In this document: piece by piece, positions 3,053 through 29,972 of the stretch
Layout of the letters: each line of letters begins with the position of its first letter
How positions within the stretch are numbered: position 1 is the first letter of the stretch
DNA from: an uncultured Acidobacteriia bacterium
GTDB taxonomy: Bacteria; Acidobacteriota; Terriglobia; Bryobacterales; Bryobacteraceae
Length of the DNA: 33,603 nt
Assembly: GCA_903923395.1 (NCBI GenBank)
Contig: CAIXXM010000091.1
Location: forward strand, 1 to 33,603
Reading direction: 5' to 3'
Position numbers and translations under genes: made by a program
The notes under the pieces: generated by a model
Databases searched by the model: none
What the model saw: only the letters and a program-made list of their open reading frames with translations
What the model was told of the DNA's origin: nothing

Positions 3053-3348
3053 CGTTTCTCCTCCGGCGCCCGCTTCTTGAACATCTTCAACATACGGTCA
3101 GTAATCAGGTAGCCGCTCACCACGTTGACTGTCGAAGCAACCACTGCAATGAAGCCGAGTGCCCGTGTGAGGAACGACGCATCATCCGCGCCCGTCACCA
3201 GAATTGCCCCCACCACAGCGATCGCGGAGATGGCATTGGTCAGAGACATCAGCGGCGTGTGCAACAGCGGCGAGACCCGCCGAATCAATTCGAACCCCAG
3301 AAATGCCGCCAGCATGAAAACCCACAGAGCCACTTCGTACTTATTCAT
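3049..3348 (-). CDS. pntAB: NAD(P) transhydrogenase subunit alpha part 2 (membrane part)
   Basis: A 99-residue membrane protein equal to the C-terminal membrane segment of fused PntA proteins such as that of E. coli. Visible features are hydrophobic helices (ALWVFMLAAFLGFELI, then a stretch around AISAIAVVGAILVTG) and the family signature HTPLMSLTNAISAI. The C-terminus is basic and cytoplasmic. It overlaps pntAA upstream and pntB downstream by four bases each. The split alpha subunit (PntAA plus PntAB) is the common three-gene arrangement in many non-enterobacterial genomes and is not a frameshift, because each part has its own start and coupled overlap. Confidence 0.95.
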   Translation of the reverse strand: MNKYEVALWVFMLAAFLGFELIRRVSPLLHTPLMSLTNAISAIAVVGAILVTGADDASFLTRALGFIAVVASTVNVVSGYLITDRMLKMFKKRAPEEKR

Positions 3349-4514
3349 CGTCCGCCTCCACTTACTGCGATCAGTTCCCTGACCTTGGCATGCACCACCT
3401 TCCCCGCATGTGTGACCAAAGATTCCCGGATTACTTCATCTTCCAGGTTCAGCGCCAGTTGCCCCTTCGGAAACAACAGCTTCACCAGTGCAGTAACATT
3501 GGAGCTGAACATCTGGCTTGCATGATAGGGAACATCACTGGGCAGGTTGACCGGACCCAGCACATGAATCCCCCGGTGTATCACCGTCTCCCCCGCAACA
3601 GTAAGTTCACAATTCCCCCCGCGTTCCGCCGCGATATCTACAATGACTGACCCCGGCTGCATCGCCTCAGCCATTTCCCGCGTTACTAATACCGGCGCTT
3701 TCCGCCCCGGCACCGCCGCCGTTGTAATCAGCACATCCTGCTCGCGGATCACCTCCGTCAGCAATTCCCTCTGCCTCCGGTAGAACGCTTCATCCATCGC
3801 CTTGGCATACCCGCCCTTATCTTCAGAGGACCGGGAATCCATATCGAGCACGATGAATTTCGCACCCACACTTTCTACTTGTTCCTTTACCGCCGGACGC
3901 AGATCATAGGCAGAAACCACCGCACCCAGGCGCCGCGCGGTTGCAATCGCCTGCAGCCCGGCCACTCCCGCACCCAGCACGAAAACCTTTGCCGGTGCAA
4001 TGGTGCCCGCTGCCGTCGTCATCAAGGGAAACAGTCTCGGCAGCGCGGTTGCCGCCAGTAGGACAGCGCGGTAGCCGGCGATGGTTGCCATCGCCGAAAG
4101 CACATCCATGCTCTGTGCGCGCGTGATGCGTGGAATCAATTCCAGCGCTAGAAACGAAGCCCCGGTTTGCGCAAGGTCCGCGCATTCCCGCAGCGCCGTT
4201 AGTGGTTCGCCGAAGCCGGTCAGCAACTGCCCCGGCCGCAGCAACGGAAGATCCGCGCGCCCCTCTTGTGGATTCGCCCCCAGCGCCCGCACCTGCGCAA
4301 TGATCTGTGACCGTGCGAAGACTTCTTCGCGGCCGGCGAGTCCGGCACCGCGCGCGGCATAGGCTTCATCCGTGTAGCCGGATTCCACCCCCGCGCCATG
4401 TTCCACCAGTACTTCGAGGCCCGCCTTGCGCAGCGACTCCACATACCGCGGTGTGATTGCCACGCGACGTTCTCCCGGGAACGTCTCACGTGGAGTTCCG
4501 AGAATTGCAGACAA
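3345..4514 (-). CDS. pntAA: NAD(P) transhydrogenase subunit alpha part 1
   Basis: The 389-residue soluble NAD(H)-binding domain I of transhydrogenase, related to alanine dehydrogenase. It begins with the conserved ILGTPRETFPGERRVAITP. The nucleotide-binding core shows VFVLGAGVAGLQAIATARRLGA with YDLRPAVKEQVESVGAKF following. The late block HVLGPVNLPSDVPYHASQMF is characteristic of PntA. The start codon is TTG at 4514. An SD-like GGAGG lies a few bases upstream, and no in-frame ATG lies before the conserved N-terminus. It is first in the operon pntAA-pntAB-pntB. No clear promoter was identified in the divergent region between it and the ilv leader. Confidence 0.95.
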   Translation of the reverse strand: MSAILGTPRETFPGERRVAITPRYVESLRKAGLEVLVEHGAGVESGYTDEAYAARGAGLAGREEVFARSQIIAQVRALGANPQEGRADLPLLRPGQLLTGFGEPLTALRECADLAQTGASFLALELIPRITRAQSMDVLSAMATIAGYRAVLLAATALPRLFPLMTTAAGTIAPAKVFVLGAGVAGLQAIATARRLGAVVSAYDLRPAVKEQVESVGAKFIVLDMDSRSSEDKGGYAKAMDEAFYRRQRELLTEVIREQDVLITTAAVPGRKAPVLVTREMAEAMQPGSVIVDIAAERGGNCELTVAGETVIHRGIHVLGPVNLPSDVPYHASQMFSSNVTALVKLLFPKGQLALNLEDEVIRESLVTHAGKVVHAKVRELIAVSGGGR

Positions 4515-4925: not shown

Positions 4926-5069
4926 TGAAATCAACAACTTACACCTCATCCCTCAACCCGCTCCCCCTCACCCTCCCACCCCAAAAACGTCGGAACGAAA
5001 CCACCGTATGGAATCTTTATATCTCCTCCGCCCCTATCTTCATATAAAAATTACTAATACAAATCGCTG

Positions 5070-5098
5070 TTCTCATTTGGGAAACTTTGGTGTACACT
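5070..5098 (+). promoter_or_regulatory. Candidate promoter of the ilv leader transcript
   Basis: TTCTCA (5070-5075) and TACACT (5093-5098) are separated by 17 bases and each matches four of six sigma-70 consensus positions. A start site about seven bases downstream would leave only a few untranslated bases before the leader peptide ATG at 5112. The match is modest, and the call depends mainly on its position directly before the leader peptide. Confidence 0.35.
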
Positions 5099-5111
5099 GA
5101 AGTTTCTGAAG

Positions 5112-5201
5112 ATGCCCCTCCTTCTTACAGGACGAATTACCACCGTATCCCTCCCGGTACCCGTTACCGTAGGGATCGTAGTAGTTCCCAGCCCCGCCTG
5201 A
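5112..5201 (+). CDS. ilv operon leader peptide (branched-chain-rich attenuation peptide)
   Basis: A 29-residue open frame, ATG to TGA. It begins MPLLLTGRITTV and ends with VGIVVVPSPA. Thirteen residues are branched-chain amino acids (Leu3-5, Ile9, Val12, Leu14, Val16, Val18, Val20, Ile22, Val23-25), with four threonines. This is the composition of ilv leader peptides in enterobacteria, in which ribosome stalling at these codons reports shortage of charged tRNA. The frame sits between a candidate promoter and a strong intrinsic terminator (5227-5276), all upstream of ilvB. Its last codons contain CCCCGC (5192-5197), exactly complementary to GCGGGG in the terminator's 5' arm. No good SD is present; a short or leaderless 5' end would explain that. 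The name ilvL would be by analogy only. Confidence 0.8.
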   Translation: MPLLLTGRITTVSLPVPVTVGIVVVPSPA

Positions 5202-5239
5202 AGCAGAGGGATTCACAAGATCCAATGCCATCAGCGGGG
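5192..5239 (+). promoter_or_regulatory. Predicted antiterminator pairing of the ilv attenuator
   Basis: CCCCGC at 5192-5197, inside the last codons of the leader peptide, is the exact reverse complement of GCGGGG at 5234-5239, part of the terminator's 5' arm. If a ribosome stalls upstream at the Val/Ile codons, this pairing can form and disrupt the terminator, allowing ilvB transcription. If the ribosome reaches the stop codon at 5199-5201 it masks 5192-5197, and the terminator folds. This is inferred from complementarity and position. Confidence 0.6.
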
Positions 5240-5276
5240 TGCTCAACACACACCCTCCTGATGGCTTTTTTGTTTT
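5227..5276 (+). terminator. Intrinsic terminator acting as ilv attenuator
   Basis: GCCATCAG (5227-5234) pairs perfectly with CTGATGGC (5258-5265). The stem is extended inside by GGGTG (5237-5241) with CACCC (5251-5255) around a nine-base loop. Six T residues follow (5266-5271), then G and TTTT. It ends 21 bases before the ilvB start, so it can only be meaningful if it is conditional. That fits attenuation together with the leader peptide at 5112-5201. Confidence 0.92.
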
Positions 5277-5297
5277 ACGGAGTACACAAGGTCCACC

Positions 5298-7052
5298 ATG
5301 CTGAACGCAGAACACAAGCGCAATGAAGGCCGGTTGATGAACGGCGCCGAAATCCTCCTCGAATGCCTCGTCCGCGAAGGCGTCGATTGCTTCTTCGGCT
5401 ATCCCGGCGGCGTCACTCTTCCGTTCTATGACGCGGTCTATGATCACCAGATCCGCCACGTCCTCGTCCGCCACGAAGAAAACGCGGTCTTCGCCGCCCA
5501 GGGCTACTCCCGCGCCACCGGCAAGACCGGCGTTTGCTGCGCCACCTCCGGCCCCGGTGCCACCAACCTCGTCACCGGCCTCGTCGACGCCATGATGGAT
5601 TCCATCCCCCTCGTCGCCATCACCGGCCAGGTCCACTCCAAGCTCATCGGCTCAGACGCCTTCCAGGAAGCCGACACCTTCGGCATCACCCGGCCCGCCA
5701 CCAAGCACAACTTCATGGTCCGCAACGTCCATGAACTCCCCCAGATCATCCATGAGGCCTTCTACATCGCCTCCACCGGACGCCCCGGACCCGTTCTCGT
5801 CGATATCCCCAAAGACGTCTTCCAGGACCGCGCCCACTATGTTCCGGTCGATGCCATACATCTTCCCGGCTATAAAGTGTTCCTCGATGGTCACGCCGGC
5901 CAGATCCGCCGCGCCGCCCAGTTGATGCTCGAAGCCGAACGCCCGCTCATCTACGCCGGCGGCGGCATCATCCACTCCGGGGCTTCCGCTGAACTCACCG
6001 AACTGGCGGAACTGCTCGATGCACCCGCCGTCTGCACCCTGATGGGCCTCGGCGGACTCTCCTCCAGCCACCCGAATTTCATCTCCATGCCCGGCATGCA
6101 CGGTTCCTACGCGGCCAACCTGGCGCTCACGGAATCGGATCTGCTCATCGCCCTCGGCGTCCGCTTCGATGACCGCGTCACCGGCAAACTGCAGGCCTTC
6201 GCCCGCCACGCCCGCGTGATCCATGTGGACATTGATCCTGCCGAAATCGCCAAGAACCGCGTTCCCGATATCCCCATCGTCGGCGACGTCAAGCGCGTCC
6301 TGCAGAAGATGAACCGGGTCGTCGAAGAACTCAAGCCGGACATGCCGGCCAAGACCGCCAGCGCCCGCCAGGATTGGTGGAGCAAGGTCCGCGGCTGGAT
6401 GGACGAACGCCCCTTCGACCGTTCCCGCGCCGAAAACGAAATCAAGCCCCAGCACCTCATGGACGAGATCGACCGTCTCTCCGGCGGCCAGGCTATCGTC
6501 ACCAGTGACGTCGGTCAGCACCAGATGTGGGCCGCGCAGCTCATCCGCTTCAACGAACCCCGCCTCTGGATCAACTCCGGCGGACTCGGCTCCATGGGCT
6601 TCGGCGTTCCCTCCGCCGTTGGTGCCCAGATGGCCCGCCCCGATAAGCTCGTCTTCGCCATCTGCGGTGACGGCGGCTTCCAGATGGCCATTCCGGAACT
6701 CTCCACCATCGCGGCCAACAACCTGCCCATCAAGATCATCATTATGAATAACGGTGTGCTCGGCATGGTTCGCCAGTGGCAGACCCTCTTTTACAACAAC
6801 CGACTCAGTTCCGTGGCGCTCGAAGCCTTCCCGGATGCCGAAAAGCTCGCCGGTGCCTACGGCTTCACGGGCCGCACCATCGACAAGCCCTGGGAACTCA
6901 CTGAGGCCCTCATCACGGCCATCAACCACCCCGGACCCTACCTGCTCAACGTCAAGGTCTCTCCCATGGAGAACGTCTACCCGATGGTTCCCGCGGGCGG
7001 TGCCATCAATGAAATGGTCTTCGCGCCAGCCGAAGAACCGGCTCTCGTCTAA
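5298..7052 (+). CDS. ilvB: Acetolactate synthase large (catalytic) subunit
   Basis: The 584-residue ThDP- and FAD-dependent acetohydroxyacid synthase subunit, which condenses pyruvate with pyruvate or 2-oxobutyrate as the first common step of valine, leucine and isoleucine synthesis. It shows NGAEILLECLVREGVD, then FGYPGG, the ThDP-activating glutamate in VRHEENAVFAAQGY (about Glu60), a central FAD domain, and the ThDP-Mg motif GDGGFQM (457-463) continuing to MNNGVLGMVRQWQ. Length is normal. The ATG at 5298 has AAGG six bases upstream. An in-frame ATG at 5337, also with AAGG at good spacing, is an alternative start that would remove 13 residues. It is first in an operon with ilvN 13 bases downstream, and expression is probably controlled by the preceding attenuator. 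Confidence 0.97.
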   Translation: MLNAEHKRNEGRLMNGAEILLECLVREGVDCFFGYPGGVTLPFYDAVYDHQIRHVLVRHEENAVFAAQGYSRATGKTGVCCATSGPGATNLVTGLVDAMMDSIPLVAITGQVHSKLIGSDAFQEADTFGITRPATKHNFMVRNVHELPQIIHEAFYIASTGRPGPVLVDIPKDVFQDRAHYVPVDAIHLPGYKVFLDGHAGQIRRAAQLMLEAERPLIYAGGGIIHSGASAELTELAELLDAPAVCTLMGLGGLSSSHPNFISMPGMHGSYAANLALTESDLLIALGVRFDDRVTGKLQAFARHARVIHVDIDPAEIAKNRVPDIPIVGDVKRVLQKMNRVVEELKPDMPAKTASARQDWWSKVRGWMDERPFDRSRAENEIKPQHLMDEIDRLSGGQAIVTSDVGQHQMWAAQLIRFNEPRLWINSGGLGSMGFGVPSAVGAQMARPDKLVFAICGDGGFQMAIPELSTIAANNLPIKIIIMNNGVLGMVRQWQTLFYNNRLSSVALEAFPDAEKLAGAYGFTGRTIDKPWELTEALITAINHPGPYLLNVKVSPMENVYPMVPAGGAINEMVFAPAEEPALV

Positions 7053-7065
7053 CAAGGAAACTGCC

Positions 7066-7593
7066 ATGCAGCAAACCATTTCCGTTCTTCTCGAAAACAA
7101 ACCCGGCGCTCTGCTCCGGGTGACCGGCGTCCTCTCGGCGCGCGGCTATAACATCGAAAGCCTCACGGTGGCCAAGACTTTGGACCCCGATCTCTCCCGG
7201 ATGACCATCGTCGTCGACGTGGAAGACCGTCTCCGCAGCCAAGTCGTCAAGCAGATCAACAAGCTCATCAATGTGCTCCAGGCCACTGACCTGACGGACG
7301 CACCCGCCGTCATCCGCGAAATGGTGCTGCTCCGGCTGCGCTGCGAACAGCCCTCCCGCACTTCGGTCCTCAAGGAAGCCGAAATCTTCAATGCCAGAGT
7401 GGTCGACAGCTCCACCGAAGGCTACGCCATCGAAGCCACAGGTGACCCCGAAAAGCTCGATGAGTTCATCGAAGTCATGCGCACTTACGGCGAAATCGAG
7501 ATCTCCCGCGCGGGCGCTTGCGCCATGTCGCTGGAAGGCAAGAAACTGCGGCTCCAGCCGCCAATCCCCGCACCCGCCTTAGCGCAGGTGTAG
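7066..7593 (+). CDS. ilvN: Acetolactate synthase small (regulatory) subunit
   Basis: The 175-residue regulatory subunit, which stimulates the catalytic subunit and confers valine feedback inhibition in the family. The N-terminal ACT domain (residues 1-75) begins [20 protein letters not shown] and contains the family block [14 protein letters not shown] second ACT-like domain spans about 80-160 ([15 protein letters not shown], and [20 protein letters not shown]). The start is the ATG at 7066 with AAGGAA just upstream (7054-7059). The same frame stays open upstream into ilvB, but that extension is out of frame with ilvB and meaningless. It lies 13 bases after ilvB. Confidence 0.96.
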
Positions 7594-7618: not shown

Positions 7619-8641
7619 ATGCCAAAACGCTTTTACGAGCAAGACGGGAACATCGCCCCCCTCCAGGGCAAGAAGATCGCCATCATCGGCTACGGCAGCC
7701 AGGGACATGCCCACGCCTTGAACCTCCGGGATTCCGGCCTGACCGTCTGCGTCGGCCTGCCCGAAGGCTCCAAGAGCCGTGCCAAGGCGCTCGCCGCGGG
7801 CCTCGAAGTGCTCACCCCCGCCGAAGCCACCAAGGTCTCTGACTTCATCATGATCCTCGTGCCGGATCACATCCAGGCAGATCTCTTCAACTCTGAGATC
7901 GCCCCGAATCTCGCCCCCGGCAAGACCCTCATGTTTGCCCATGGCTTCAACATCCATTTCGGCTTCATCGCCCCGCCCGCCGGTGTCGATGTGTCGATGA
8001 TCGCGCCCAAAGCCCCTGGCCACCGCGTCCGCGAAGTCTTCACCGAAGGTTCAGGCGTGCCCGCGCTCGTCGCTGTCTATCAGGATGCTTCCGGCAAGGC
8101 CCTCGAAAACGCTCTCGCATATGGCGCAGGCATCGGCAGCCTCCGCGCCGGCATCATCGAGACCACCTTTAAGGAAGAAACCGAAAGCGATCTTTTCGGC
8201 GAACAGGCCGTGCTCTGCGGCGGCGCTGCCGAACTCATCCGCGCCGGCTTCGAAACTCTGGTGAACGCTGGTTACGCGCCGGAAATCGCCTACTTCGAAT
8301 GCCTGCACGAACTCAAGCTCATCGTCGATCTCATCTATGAGGGCGGCCTCGGCTACATGCGCTTCTCCGTTTCCGACACTGCGGAATACGGCGACTACAC
8401 CCGCGGACCCCGCGTGGTCAATGACGCCACCCGCGAAGAAATGAAGAAGATCCTCGCGGAAATCCAGTCCGGCGAATTTGCCCGCCAGTGGATGAAGGAA
8501 AACAAAGACGGCCGCGCCGGCTTCCTCGCCATGCGGAAGTCGCAGGAAGACCAGCAGATCGAGACCGTCGGCAAGGAACTCCGTTCCATGATGACCTTCT
8601 TGAAACGTAACCGCGAAGCAGGCGTCCCCCAGGCTTCGTAA
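7619..8641 (+). CDS. ilvC: Ketol-acid reductoisomerase
   Basis: A 340-residue class I (short-form) ketol-acid reductoisomerase that converts acetolactate or acetohydroxybutyrate to dihydroxy acids using NAD(P)H and Mg2+. The Rossmann motif GYGSQG is at residues 24-29 (continuing [11 protein letters not shown]). The cofactor loop reads GLPEGSKSR, with serines typical of NADPH-preferring enzymes. Later blocks include [10 protein letters not shown], the [12 protein letters not shown] segment and the knotted C-terminal domain with [16 protein letters not shown] and [22 protein letters not shown] precedes the ATG. It is 25 bases after ilvN and followed by a large hairpin repeat before cimA. Confidence 0.98.
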
Positions 8642-8734: not shown

Positions 8735-10345
8735 ATGCGCATTCAAACGTTCGATACCACTCTCCGGGACGGCACCCAAGGCGAAGCCGTCTCCTTCACC
8801 GTCGAGGACAAGCTTGCCATTAGCATTAAGCTCGACGAACTGGGTATCGACTACATTGAAGGCGGCTGGCCTGGTTCCAATCCCAAAGACAAAGAGTTCT
8901 TCGCCCGCGCGAAAGACCTCAAACTCAAGCACGCCAAACTCACCGCGTTCGGTTCCACACGCTTCGCACGCAATCCCGTCGAGCAGGACCGCAACGTCAT
9001 CGCCCTGCTCGAAGCCGAAACCCCGGCTATTGCCATCTTCGGCAAGACCTGGGACTTCCATGTCACACAAGCCCTCGGCATCACTCTCGAAGAGAACCTC
9101 ACCCTTATCCGCGAAACTGTTTCTTACCTGAAGCAGCACGGCCGCGAGGTGATCTATGATGCCGAACACTTCTTCGATGGCTATATTCACAACCGTGATT
9201 ACGCCCTCGAAACCCTGCGCGCCGCCAAAGATGCGGGCGCGGACGTGCTCTGCCTCTGTGACACCAACGGCGGCACCATGACCACGCACCTGTCACACAT
9301 CGTGGCCGACGTGCGCGCGCAATTCGATGGCATCATCGGCATCCACGTCCACAACGATTCGGATGTGGCCGTCGCCAACACTCTCGCCGCAGTCGAAGGC
9401 GGTGCCACCCATGTGCAAGGCTGCATGAACGGCTATGGCGAACGCACCGGCAATGCCGCGCTAGCCTCTGTCATCGCGAATCTTGAACTCAAACTCGGCC
9501 ACACCACCATCGGCCCCGATAAGTTACAGGGCCTGACGCAGGTCTGCCGCTATATCGCCGAACTGGCCAACCTGCCGCTGCGCCGCGAACAGCCCTTCGT
9601 CGGCCAATCTGCCTTCGCGCACAAAGGTGGCATCCACGTCAGTGCGGTGATGAAGGATTCGTCCACTTATGAACACATCGCGCCGGAGTTAGTCGGTAAC
9701 CGCCAGCGTGTCTTAGTCAGTGACTTATCCGGCCGCAGCAATGTGGTCTATAAGTTGAAGCAGGCCGGACTCGCCGAGCGACTCAACGAAGAATCCCGCC
9801 GTGACTTACTCGAGCGCATCAAGGAATGCGAGTATCTCGGCTATGATCTCGAAGCCGCTGACGGGACCTTTGAGTTATTCGTCCGCGAAGCTCTCCGCCC
9901 CGGCTCGCACTTCTTCGATATCGAAGGCTACGAAGTGAACATCAAGGCCGGCCACGGTGGACAATCCCGCGCCACTGCCACCGTGAACATTAGCTCGAAC
10001 GATGGTGTCCACTCCGCCACAGCCACAGGCCACGGACCCGTCCATGCCCTCGACGTCTGCCTCCGCCAGTGCCTCGCCAAGCTCTACCCGCAGATCGCTG
10101 ACGTCCGCCTGACGGATTACAAGGTCCGCGTCTTGGACTCGAAGAAGGGCACGGCCGCAAAAGTCCGCGTCTTGGTGGAGTGGTCAGATCACCGCAAGAG
10201 CTGGGCCACCGTCGGCGTTTCAGACGACGTCATCGAAGCCAGCTGGAACGCCATGGTCGACGCACTCCGCCTCGAAATCATGCGCCTCACCGAAACCGAT
10301 TCGGACCTGGATAAAGCCGTCGTGGATTACTGCTGGGGCGTGTAG
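8735..10345 (+). CDS. cimA: (R)-citramalate synthase
   Basis: The 536-residue CimA-type enzyme, which condenses pyruvate and acetyl-CoA to citramalate as the entry to threonine-independent isoleucine synthesis. It starts with FDTTLRDGTQGE, the metal- and substrate-binding N-terminal block shared with isopropylmalate synthase. The sequence DYIEGGWPGSNPKD is typical of the CimA subfamily rather than LeuA. Further features are GIHVHNDSDVAVANT, GCMNGYGERTGNA and AHKGGIHVSAV. The C-terminal allosteric domain (about 395-536) is present. TAAGGA precedes the ATG. Placement after ilvBNC links 2-oxobutyrate supply to the shared pathway. Its last 19 bases overlap the converging doc remnant. Confidence 0.94.
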   Translation: MRIQTFDTTLRDGTQGEAVSFTVEDKLAISIKLDELGIDYIEGGWPGSNPKDKEFFARAKDLKLKHAKLTAFGSTRFARNPVEQDRNVIALLEAETPAIAIFGKTWDFHVTQALGITLEENLTLIRETVSYLKQHGREVIYDAEHFFDGYIHNRDYALETLRAAKDAGADVLCLCDTNGGTMTTHLSHIVADVRAQFDGIIGIHVHNDSDVAVANTLAAVEGGATHVQGCMNGYGERTGNAALASVIANLELKLGHTTIGPDKLQGLTQVCRYIAELANLPLRREQPFVGQSAFAHKGGIHVSAVMKDSSTYEHIAPELVGNRQRVLVSDLSGRSNVVYKLKQAGLAERLNEESRRDLLERIKECEYLGYDLEAADGTFELFVREALRPGSHFFDIEGYEVNIKAGHGGQSRATATVNISSNDGVHSATATGHGPVHALDVCLRQCLAKLYPQIADVRLTDYKVRVLDSKKGTAAKVRVLVEWSDHRKSWATVGVSDDVIEASWNAMVDALRLEIMRLTETDSDLDKAVVDYCWGV

Positions 10346-29277: not shown

Positions 29278-29592
29278 ATGAGCTACGCCGTCATCTTCTC
29301 CTCCCAACGCACCCCCGGCGACAACGGGTACGCCGAAACCGCTGACCGCATGGACGAACTCGCCCGCACCATGCCCGGTTACCTCGGCATGGAAAACGCC
29401 CGCAATCCCGATGGCTTCGGCATCACGGTCAGTTATTGGGCTGATGAGGCTTCCATCCTCCAGTGGAAACGCCAACTGGAACACCTCGAAGCCCAGGCCA
29501 GAGGACGCAAGGAATGGTACGCCAGCTACACCGTACGTGCAGCCAAAGTGGAACGGGAGTATTCATCTTCCACCCCCGGTATGTCAAAGTAA
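29278..29592 (+). CDS. Antibiotic biosynthesis monooxygenase (ABM) domain protein
   Basis: A 104-residue protein of the ABM/dimeric ferredoxin-like barrel family. The pattern YAVIFSSQRTPGDNGYAETA, then PGYLGMENARNPDGFGITVSYW and a final EWYASYTVRAAKVEREY fits the small stress-related ABM proteins. Members act as cofactor-free monooxygenases or haem-binding proteins, and the substrate here is unknown. No strong SD is seen, and a TAAGAT hexamer lies six bases before the ATG. Its TAA overlaps the ATG of the next gene by one base. Confidence 0.85.
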   Translation: MSYAVIFSSQRTPGDNGYAETADRMDELARTMPGYLGMENARNPDGFGITVSYWADEASILQWKRQLEHLEAQARGRKEWYASYTVRAAKVEREYSSSTPGMSK

Positions 29593-29972
29593 TGGGGATG
29601 AAAAAAGTACTGTTTCAGCCGTCTCTGCCTGTTTTCGCACTCCTTCTGACCGCCGCCGCTCTGCAGGCGCAGAACGCGCAAAACGCCACACTGGTCGTCC
29701 GGGCCGATGCCGAATGCAAGCTGAGCGTCGATGGCGAAGCCAAAGGCGTTCTCCGTCCCGATGACCGCATGCGGATCGTCCTCCAACTGGGCGAGCATCT
29801 TGTCGAGGCCGTGCCAACTGCCGGCGGCAAACGCTGGGAGCAGGTGGTCAATCTGAATGAGGCGAAGACCCAGGTCCTGACCATTACCCTGCCGAAAGCA
29901 CCCGCCGCCCCGCCCGCGGCACCCAAGACTGCCACCACCCCAGCGCCCCCGCCGCCCCCAAACCCTACATGA
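29592..29972 (+). pseudogene. N-terminal half of a split PEGA-like/DUF1566 secreted protein
   Basis: Encodes 126 residues: a signal peptide (MKKVLFQPSLPVFALLLTAA), then a PEGA-like beta domain (ATLVVRADAECKLSVDGEAKG to TQVLTITL) and a Pro/Ala-rich linker (KAPAAPPAAPKTATTPAPP). It ends at TGA 29970-29972 inside a C-rich tract. The other frame continues the linker as APAAPKPY and runs directly into the DUF1566 domain. The two frames therefore look like one protein broken by a one-base slip in the poly-C region near 29945-29960. A sequencing error or slippage is possible. Alternatively, two genes are coupled through the ATGA overlap. Confidence 0.6.

Follow-up and report, generated by a model that had tools for sequence, protein, structure and literature searches.

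In enterobacteria, the attenuators of ilvGMEDA, ilvB and leu follow one logic, in which codons for branched-chain amino acids (BCAAs), competing stems and a terminator precede the operon; their 5' UTR is an ordinary one that contains a ribosome binding site, and their leader has four segments, and in these two respects they differ from the locus described here. The regulatory codons of the leu leader are reported to be rare ones, as are those of the ilvB leaders examined below (PMC1183508). The ilvBNC operon of Corynebacterium glutamicum (ilvB-II motif) is similar by description, with an ilvBNC gene order, a VVV leader and a terminator/antiterminator switch, and its transcription is reported to start one nucleotide from the leader start codon (PMC11857589; PMC10272879). 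C. glutamicum belongs to another phylum, however, and a three-hairpin model with an anti-antiterminator has been argued for it (PMC11857589), whereas the antiterminator predicted here consists of the last codons of the leader and its stop codon, and a protector stem is unsupported. The ilvB1NC operon of Mycobacterium tuberculosis likewise carries a leader, with BCAA codons in a predicted peptide and a short RNA that ends within the leader, but this leader measures 166 nt and again belongs to another phylum (PMC13236596). For Sinorhizobium meliloti trpL (rnTrpL), the transcript is described as beginning at the leader ATG (PMC7298713), although this is a Trp operon and yet another phylum is concerned. 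Mycobacterial polycysteine short ORFs are reported as leaderless, amino-acid-responsive attenuators (PMC13236596), but they use Cys codons, and the cys operons are described as having no obvious upstream terminators (PMC1262725). Thus, the kind of element is already known from C. glutamicum, M. tuberculosis, S. meliloti and the mycobacterial polycysteine ORFs, three of these precedents being leaderless. The ilvB-OMG motif is also associated with ilvB, occurs in several phyla and has been re-read as a BCAA-rich uORF (PMC10272879); the region yielded no Rfam match for it, whether at the gathering level or with E relaxed to 5.

Here, we describe an ilvB leader in the 6.15 Mb genome of an uncultured member of the Bryobacteraceae, contained in a window (the whole stretch of DNA analysed) of 33,603 nt; coordinates within the window refer to the plus strand. 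The operon reads ilvB-ilvN-ilvC-cimA, with cimA inside the ilv operon: ilvB (acetolactate synthase large subunit, 5298-7052), ilvC (ketol-acid reductoisomerase, 7619-8641) and cimA (citramalate synthase, 8735-10345) score above the cut-offs of TIGR00118, NF004017 and TIGR00977, respectively, and ilvN (7066-7593) is predicted from its translation and position. The best named IlvB relatives come from Acidobacteria and Bryobacterales MAGs, at 72-73% identity. Folding of a 196-nt region around the leader gave z = -3.66, with none of 200 shuffles equally stable. A search of Rfam 15 returned 0 matches at the gathering level, in agreement with the first-pass annotation, which had held that T-box and other leader classes do not fit; two matches below that level (E 3.4 and 4.1), both on the other strand, were judged to be due to chance.

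IlvB was found in 17 of the 19 genus genomes, that of the window included, and all 17 loci carry a leader, promoter, short spacer and terminator before ilvB. A covariance model (R1) running from the last 30 leader nucleotides to the U tract was built from these 17 loci and matched 120 of the 150 genomes sampled from the family, including 5 that belong to the training genus; the matched genomes cover 68 of 76 sampled genera. The 30 genomes with no match may reflect incomplete assemblies or strict filters as well as true absence. Matches were obtained in 183 of 250 genomes of the order, six of them outside the family, and in 3 of 396 across the phylum, namely the window's genome and two weak ones. 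When R1 was run against 80 named ilvB loci (75 not titled Acidobacteria or Bryobacterales), the single match was L021, titled Acidobacteriia and one of the best named IlvB relatives mentioned above; L022, titled Bryobacterales, gave none, and L020 and L023 include hardly any upstream sequence. A subset of 142 R1 loci was examined, of which 124 lie at ilvB, 10 at cimA and 1 at leuA, the remaining 7 being located elsewhere. Five received no leader call (L147, L205, L209, L215 and L231) and eight were set aside, comprising the off-lineage L141 and L142, the non-leaders L145, L146, L152 and L229, and the ilvB loci L154 and L232, which were misread by the caller. Of the 129 rows kept, 127 entered the codon and start statistics after removal of L148 and L151 (no ilvB, cimA or leuA in reach); position and duplex statistics used 128 rows (the 127 plus L142), the family test of the protector stem used 108, and the family alignment for pairing used 58 of the 129, spread over genera. 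Lack of conservation had been considered a potential argument against the element, and reading of genus and family loci showed conservation of the frame, the codon class and the two competing stems.

The leader peptide ORF, MPLLLTGRITTVSLPVPVTVGIVVVPSPA, occupies 29 codons at 5112-5201 and, as noted at first reading, is rich in BCAAs (13 of its 29 residues are Ile, Leu or Val); it has counterparts at 17/17 genus loci, where leaders of 26-37 codons differ in length by whole-codon steps and all share an ending of at least three Val, two codons, Pro, one codon and the stop. In 118 ilvB leaders, Ile, Leu or Val occurs at frequencies of 94%, 93% and 87% at the fifth, seventh and ninth codons before the stop (-5, -7 and -9), and at no more than 15% at codons -1 to -4, such that the BCAA block ends at -5. 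Val23-25 (GTA GTA GTT, 5178-5186), seven to five codons before the stop, lies at this conserved position and shows the GTA bias, and these are likely the main regulatory codons. The first-pass annotation had singled out Leu3-5 together with Val23-25; the Val/Ile block is conserved, but the Leu3-5 run is not common to the genus leaders. Val and Ile account for 27.5% and 20%, respectively, of the last 15 codons of 117 ilvB leaders, and their synonyms are distinctive: GTA makes up 56% of Val codons in ilvB leaders versus 5% in ilvB genes, and for Ile the share of ATT is 61% versus 21%. The leader reading frame was picked partly by its Ile/Leu/Val count, which inflates the contrast between frames, and the case was therefore rested on synonyms, position, alignment and gene-matched codon identity. 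The comparison supports Val/Ile, rather than Leu, as the putative regulatory codons at ilvB.

Upstream of the leader, a -10 box (TACACT, 5093-5098) aligned with those of relatives lies 13 nt before the ATG, and a TAnAnT box is present in 17/17 genus loci at a spacing of 12-13 nt from the ATG. The -35 position (TCTCAT, 5071-5076), 16 nt before the -10 box in the 17-locus genus alignment, is degenerate in the window, the other 16 of the 17 genus loci having TTGCAT. As a point against the element, a consensus scan of the window reported neither promoter nor terminator; the -35 is degenerate, and the terminator loop of 9 exceeds the scan's loop limit of 8. A TTGCA promoter followed by an in-frame start within 45 nt was recognized for 93 of 127 leaders; in 89 of these 93 the start, taken as the first in-frame ATG, GTG or TTG past the -10 (some GTG and TTG may be chance), lies 6-19 nt past the -10, and in 32 of the 89 it lies at 6-7 nt, roughly the expected position of +1. 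Those cimA leaders that were inspected by eye begin at a greater distance from the -10 (~18-24 nt). Since starts mostly fall 6-19 nt past a recognized -10, a leaderless or near-leaderless ilvB leader is probable. The short or absent 5' UTR noted at first reading recurs in relatives, as judged by the -10-to-start spacing, from which the start of transcription is predicted. Leaderless genes have been predicted in 3/3 Acidobacteria genomes, with a mean of 13.3%, so a near-leaderless start suits the phylum (PMC3160421). An A/T-rich stretch at ~5040-5070, directly 5' of the -35, recurs at many of the family loci read and is a candidate UP element or regulator site.

The intrinsic terminator proposed before ilvB at 5227-5276 was confirmed in its parts, with arms at 5227-5241 and 5251-5265, a T-rich (U) tract at 5266-5276 and ilvB from 5298; in 128 rows, the 8 nt past the stem hold a mean of 5.9 T. 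Its 5' arm belongs to segment 3 (5226-5241), which by folding and alignment pairing also serves as the 3' arm of the predicted antiterminator, and its 3' arm is segment 4 (5251-5265). Across the 58 aligned sequences, 97.9% of 580 cells of the terminator stem are paired, and 54 cells are changed on both sides versus a shuffled mean of 14.7, with 0/500 shuffles as high. Segment 2 (5191-5205), the 5' arm of the antiterminator according to ribosome-masked folding and core-helix pairing, comprises the last leader codons, the stop codon and the first nucleotides beyond. The exact complementarity of the hexamer CCCCGC (5192-5197) to GCGGGG (5234-5239) was confirmed, but the predicted antiterminator extends further, pairing 5191-5197 with 5234-5240, the stop UGA (5199-5201) with UCA (5231-5233), and 5203-5205 with 5226-5228. 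Its core helix is paired in 91.4% of 406 cells (58 sequences) versus 45-67% when slid, a comparison that favours the unslid register because the columns were first chosen from the window's own pairing. The duplex reaches z < -1.5 in 120/128 rows, with 8/128 missing this threshold. Covariation, which had been proposed as a check on both stems, is strong for the terminator and only modest for the antiterminator: 3 pairs and 9 cells change on both sides (39 and 32 of 500 shuffles, respectively, as high), the 9 cells comparing with a shuffled mean of 5.7. Little room exists for covariation in the antiterminator, as its 5' arm encodes the end of the leader and its 3' arm is shared with the terminator.

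Based on conservation and folding, the element is in all likelihood a ribosome-mediated transcription attenuator of ilvB-ilvN-ilvC-cimA, and the valine-rich frame is very probably an amino-acid sensor that turns transcription on when valine or isoleucine is scarce. RNA polymerase would start a few bases 5' of the leader ATG, and translation would begin from the leaderless or near-leaderless 5' end. With ample charged Val and Ile tRNA, the ribosome would reach the UGA and cover segment 2, allowing segments 3 and 4 to form the terminator. With Val (or Ile) in short supply, it would instead stall in the Val/Ile block that ends five codons before the stop, and segment 2, left free, could pair with the emerging segment 3 (antiterminator 2:3), so that transcription would continue into ilvB. 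Assuming a ribosome footprint of typical size, on which this assignment depends, a ribosome at -7 or -9 would expose segment 2, which would be masked once the ribosome is at the stop. In masked folds calculated before segment 4 exists, the energies of the antiterminator are -24.4, -16.8 and -10.9 kcal/mol with Val23, Val24 and Val25 in the A site, respectively, and -4.7 kcal/mol with the stop there. Whatever the mask, the complete terminator is favoured at equilibrium; the antiterminator must therefore win by forming first, and the switch must be kinetic. We infer the start of transcription, the stalling, these kinetics and the direction of the response. Counting against an attenuator, a similar-looking ilvB leader of Streptomyces coelicolor is reported to be unresponsive to codon mutations (PMC1262725).

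The best-surviving alternative is a variant of this explanation, namely a classical four-segment attenuator in which a protector stem between segments 1 and 2 forms and an untranslated leader results in termination. We regard it as rather unlikely. RNAalifold pairs a leader GCUUC with a GAGGC beyond the stop in the 17 genus sequences, with 96.5% of cells paired, and the window's own leader start forms a duplex with segment 2 at z -2.2; in the genus, however, this 1:2 pairing shows no two-sided changes and no excess versus shuffles, and across the family its mean z is -0.23, with 14/108 rows below -1.5. A protector stem that lacks covariation in the genus and significance in the family is not supported, and the locus is for this reason not classed as a classical four-segment attenuator. 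The enterobacterial ilv logic invoked by the first-pass annotation is supported for the leader, the terminator and the competing stem, with the refinement that a protector stem as in the E. coli trp attenuator lacks support. If there is no such stem, a leader that is not translated would leave the operon ON. The opposite is reported for C. glutamicum, in which removing the leader ATG reduces expression by 80% (PMC11857589).

The attenuator module also occurs before other genes, and the codons of its leader follow the gene: Val/Ile at ilvB, Ile at cimA and Leu at leuA. In their last 15 codons, nine cimA leaders have 27% Ile and 4% Val, and the single leuA (2-isopropylmalate synthase) leader has 47% Leu; NCBIfam identifies the downstream gene as leuA for L149 and as cimA for L143. 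Copies before ilvB and cimA can reside in one genome, for example in G026 (L144 and L143) and G199 (L156 and L155), and a cimA-like match lies near ilvB on the same contig in 9 of 11 genus genomes. In L151 (G020:C18, ~3500), the module precedes a 103-aa ACT-domain protein resembling the acetolactate synthase small subunit, its leader ending in ...LLLNNIAIPVITIRGPA. The weak R1 match L141 (G487:C15, ~35500) has a Leu-rich frame and terminator before a short ORF and homoserine dehydrogenase, codons that do not fit the pathway well. At L145, L146, L152 and L229, R1 also picks a GGAGGCCGCC..GGCGGCC-type terminator past a conserved short ORF, where no leader peptide was seen. A search of the window's genome and the genus with model R2 (E up to 0.05) gave 9 extra forward-strand matches, all of which were read and none of which has a leader; they were rejected as gene-end terminators or as lying inside coding-like sequence, and the remaining matches as opposite-strand matches of the ilvB hairpin. 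No leader was recognized before trpE in the 4 genus loci read, and inspection of 330 nt by eye revealed neither a leader nor an obvious terminator at 10 genus leuA loci. Upstream of leuA in the genus (L319-L328; in the window's genome, G000:C45 ~29500-29826), a conserved AATAAATTTGCTT..CATAAT promoter was seen by eye, together with, in most loci, a GGAGTACCTTCC element near the start that may be a regulator site.

These observations bear on another explanation, in which a plain terminator happens to adjoin a chance ORF and the hairpin serves only to stop transcripts arriving from upstream or to fix a constant level of readthrough. The models do also pick up ordinary terminators at gene ends whose sequence is similar (L145, L146, L152, L229 and the 9 extra forward R2 matches), and equilibrium folding always favours the terminator. 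However, the nearest upstream gene identified, that for transhydrogenase alpha (3345-4514), lies on the strand opposite to ilvB, and conservation extends to the frame, the choice and position of codons, and the antiterminator, with codons that change with the gene; this explanation is accordingly very improbable. A metabolite- or protein-binding leader (riboswitch or RNA-binding regulator) in place of ribosome sensing is scarcely credible, for although the RNA fold is strong and the element conserved order-wide, and some ilvB leaders from elsewhere were once classed as weak riboswitch candidates (PMC8632094; PMC10272879), no Rfam family matches, nothing conserved and aptamer-like is visible in the genus and family alignments beyond the codons, the stems and the promoter, and such a model would not account for the re-specialised codons or the bias towards rare ones.

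A separate His version of such a leader was found in the window's genome before hisI-hisG (hisI by Pfam PRA-CH, hisG by TIGR00070), at G000:C85 18029-18185 on the minus strand (L350, L354). Its sequence reads as a putatively near-leaderless leader with a His5 run, MAVIAASPLHLHHHHHRANCVRAVLA, which begins 8 nt past TAAACT and is followed by a terminator. Six of seven genus his loci reach far enough upstream, and all six carry a His run of 4-6 residues. A covariance model built from these six loci (R3) matched 50 of 81 family genomes and 48 of 76 genera. Among the best 25 R3 loci, hisI is the next gene in 25/25, a His run of at least three residues is present in 22/25, and, among the 21 loci with an assigned start, 17 have it 8-9 nt past the -10; in L354-L356, the script preferred a later GTG as the start.

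A lineage-wide family, an antiterminator whose 5' arm is the end of the leader itself, codon-re-specialised versions and a parallel His system are new here. Judged by titles, abstract openings and passages, no description of a Bryobacteraceae ilvB attenuator was found among the literature matches listed, from a search whose scope excluded preprints and most subscription journals. Tentatively, we suggest that amino-acid attenuation in this lineage may operate mainly via leaderless mRNAs, with one module (last codons, stop and terminator) copied or reused at ilvB, cimA and leuA with re-specialised codons, a separate leaderless His version at the his operon, and a default of ON when translation does not occur. 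If this is correct, the lack of a protector and the default ON would be the reverse of the trp attenuator, and the operons would also sense the efficiency of leaderless-mRNA initiation. The ilvB attenuator is itself well supported and testable, being present in 68 of the 76 sampled family genera with a specificity that can be read from its codons. Should transcription start where we place it, leaderless attenuation would be a lineage-wide trait beyond isolated operons, and the naturally occurring versions, specific for Val/Ile, Ile, Leu or His, would offer material for studying how a ribosome recruited without a Shine-Dalgarno sequence keeps pace with RNA polymerase.

Elsewhere in the phylum, an ad hoc detector with no shuffled background was applied to 45 of 55 ilvB places in Acidobacteriota outside the window's genome and flagged 4, of which L297 is doubtful; we treat them as no more than leads. 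In L274, L276, L293, L296 and L142, from other Acidobacteriota families, unrelated-looking frames rich in Ile, Val and Leu were seen by eye before ilvB, with last codons that complement the 5' arm of a terminator. A -10-like box precedes the frame by 13 nt in L293 and by 10 nt in L142.
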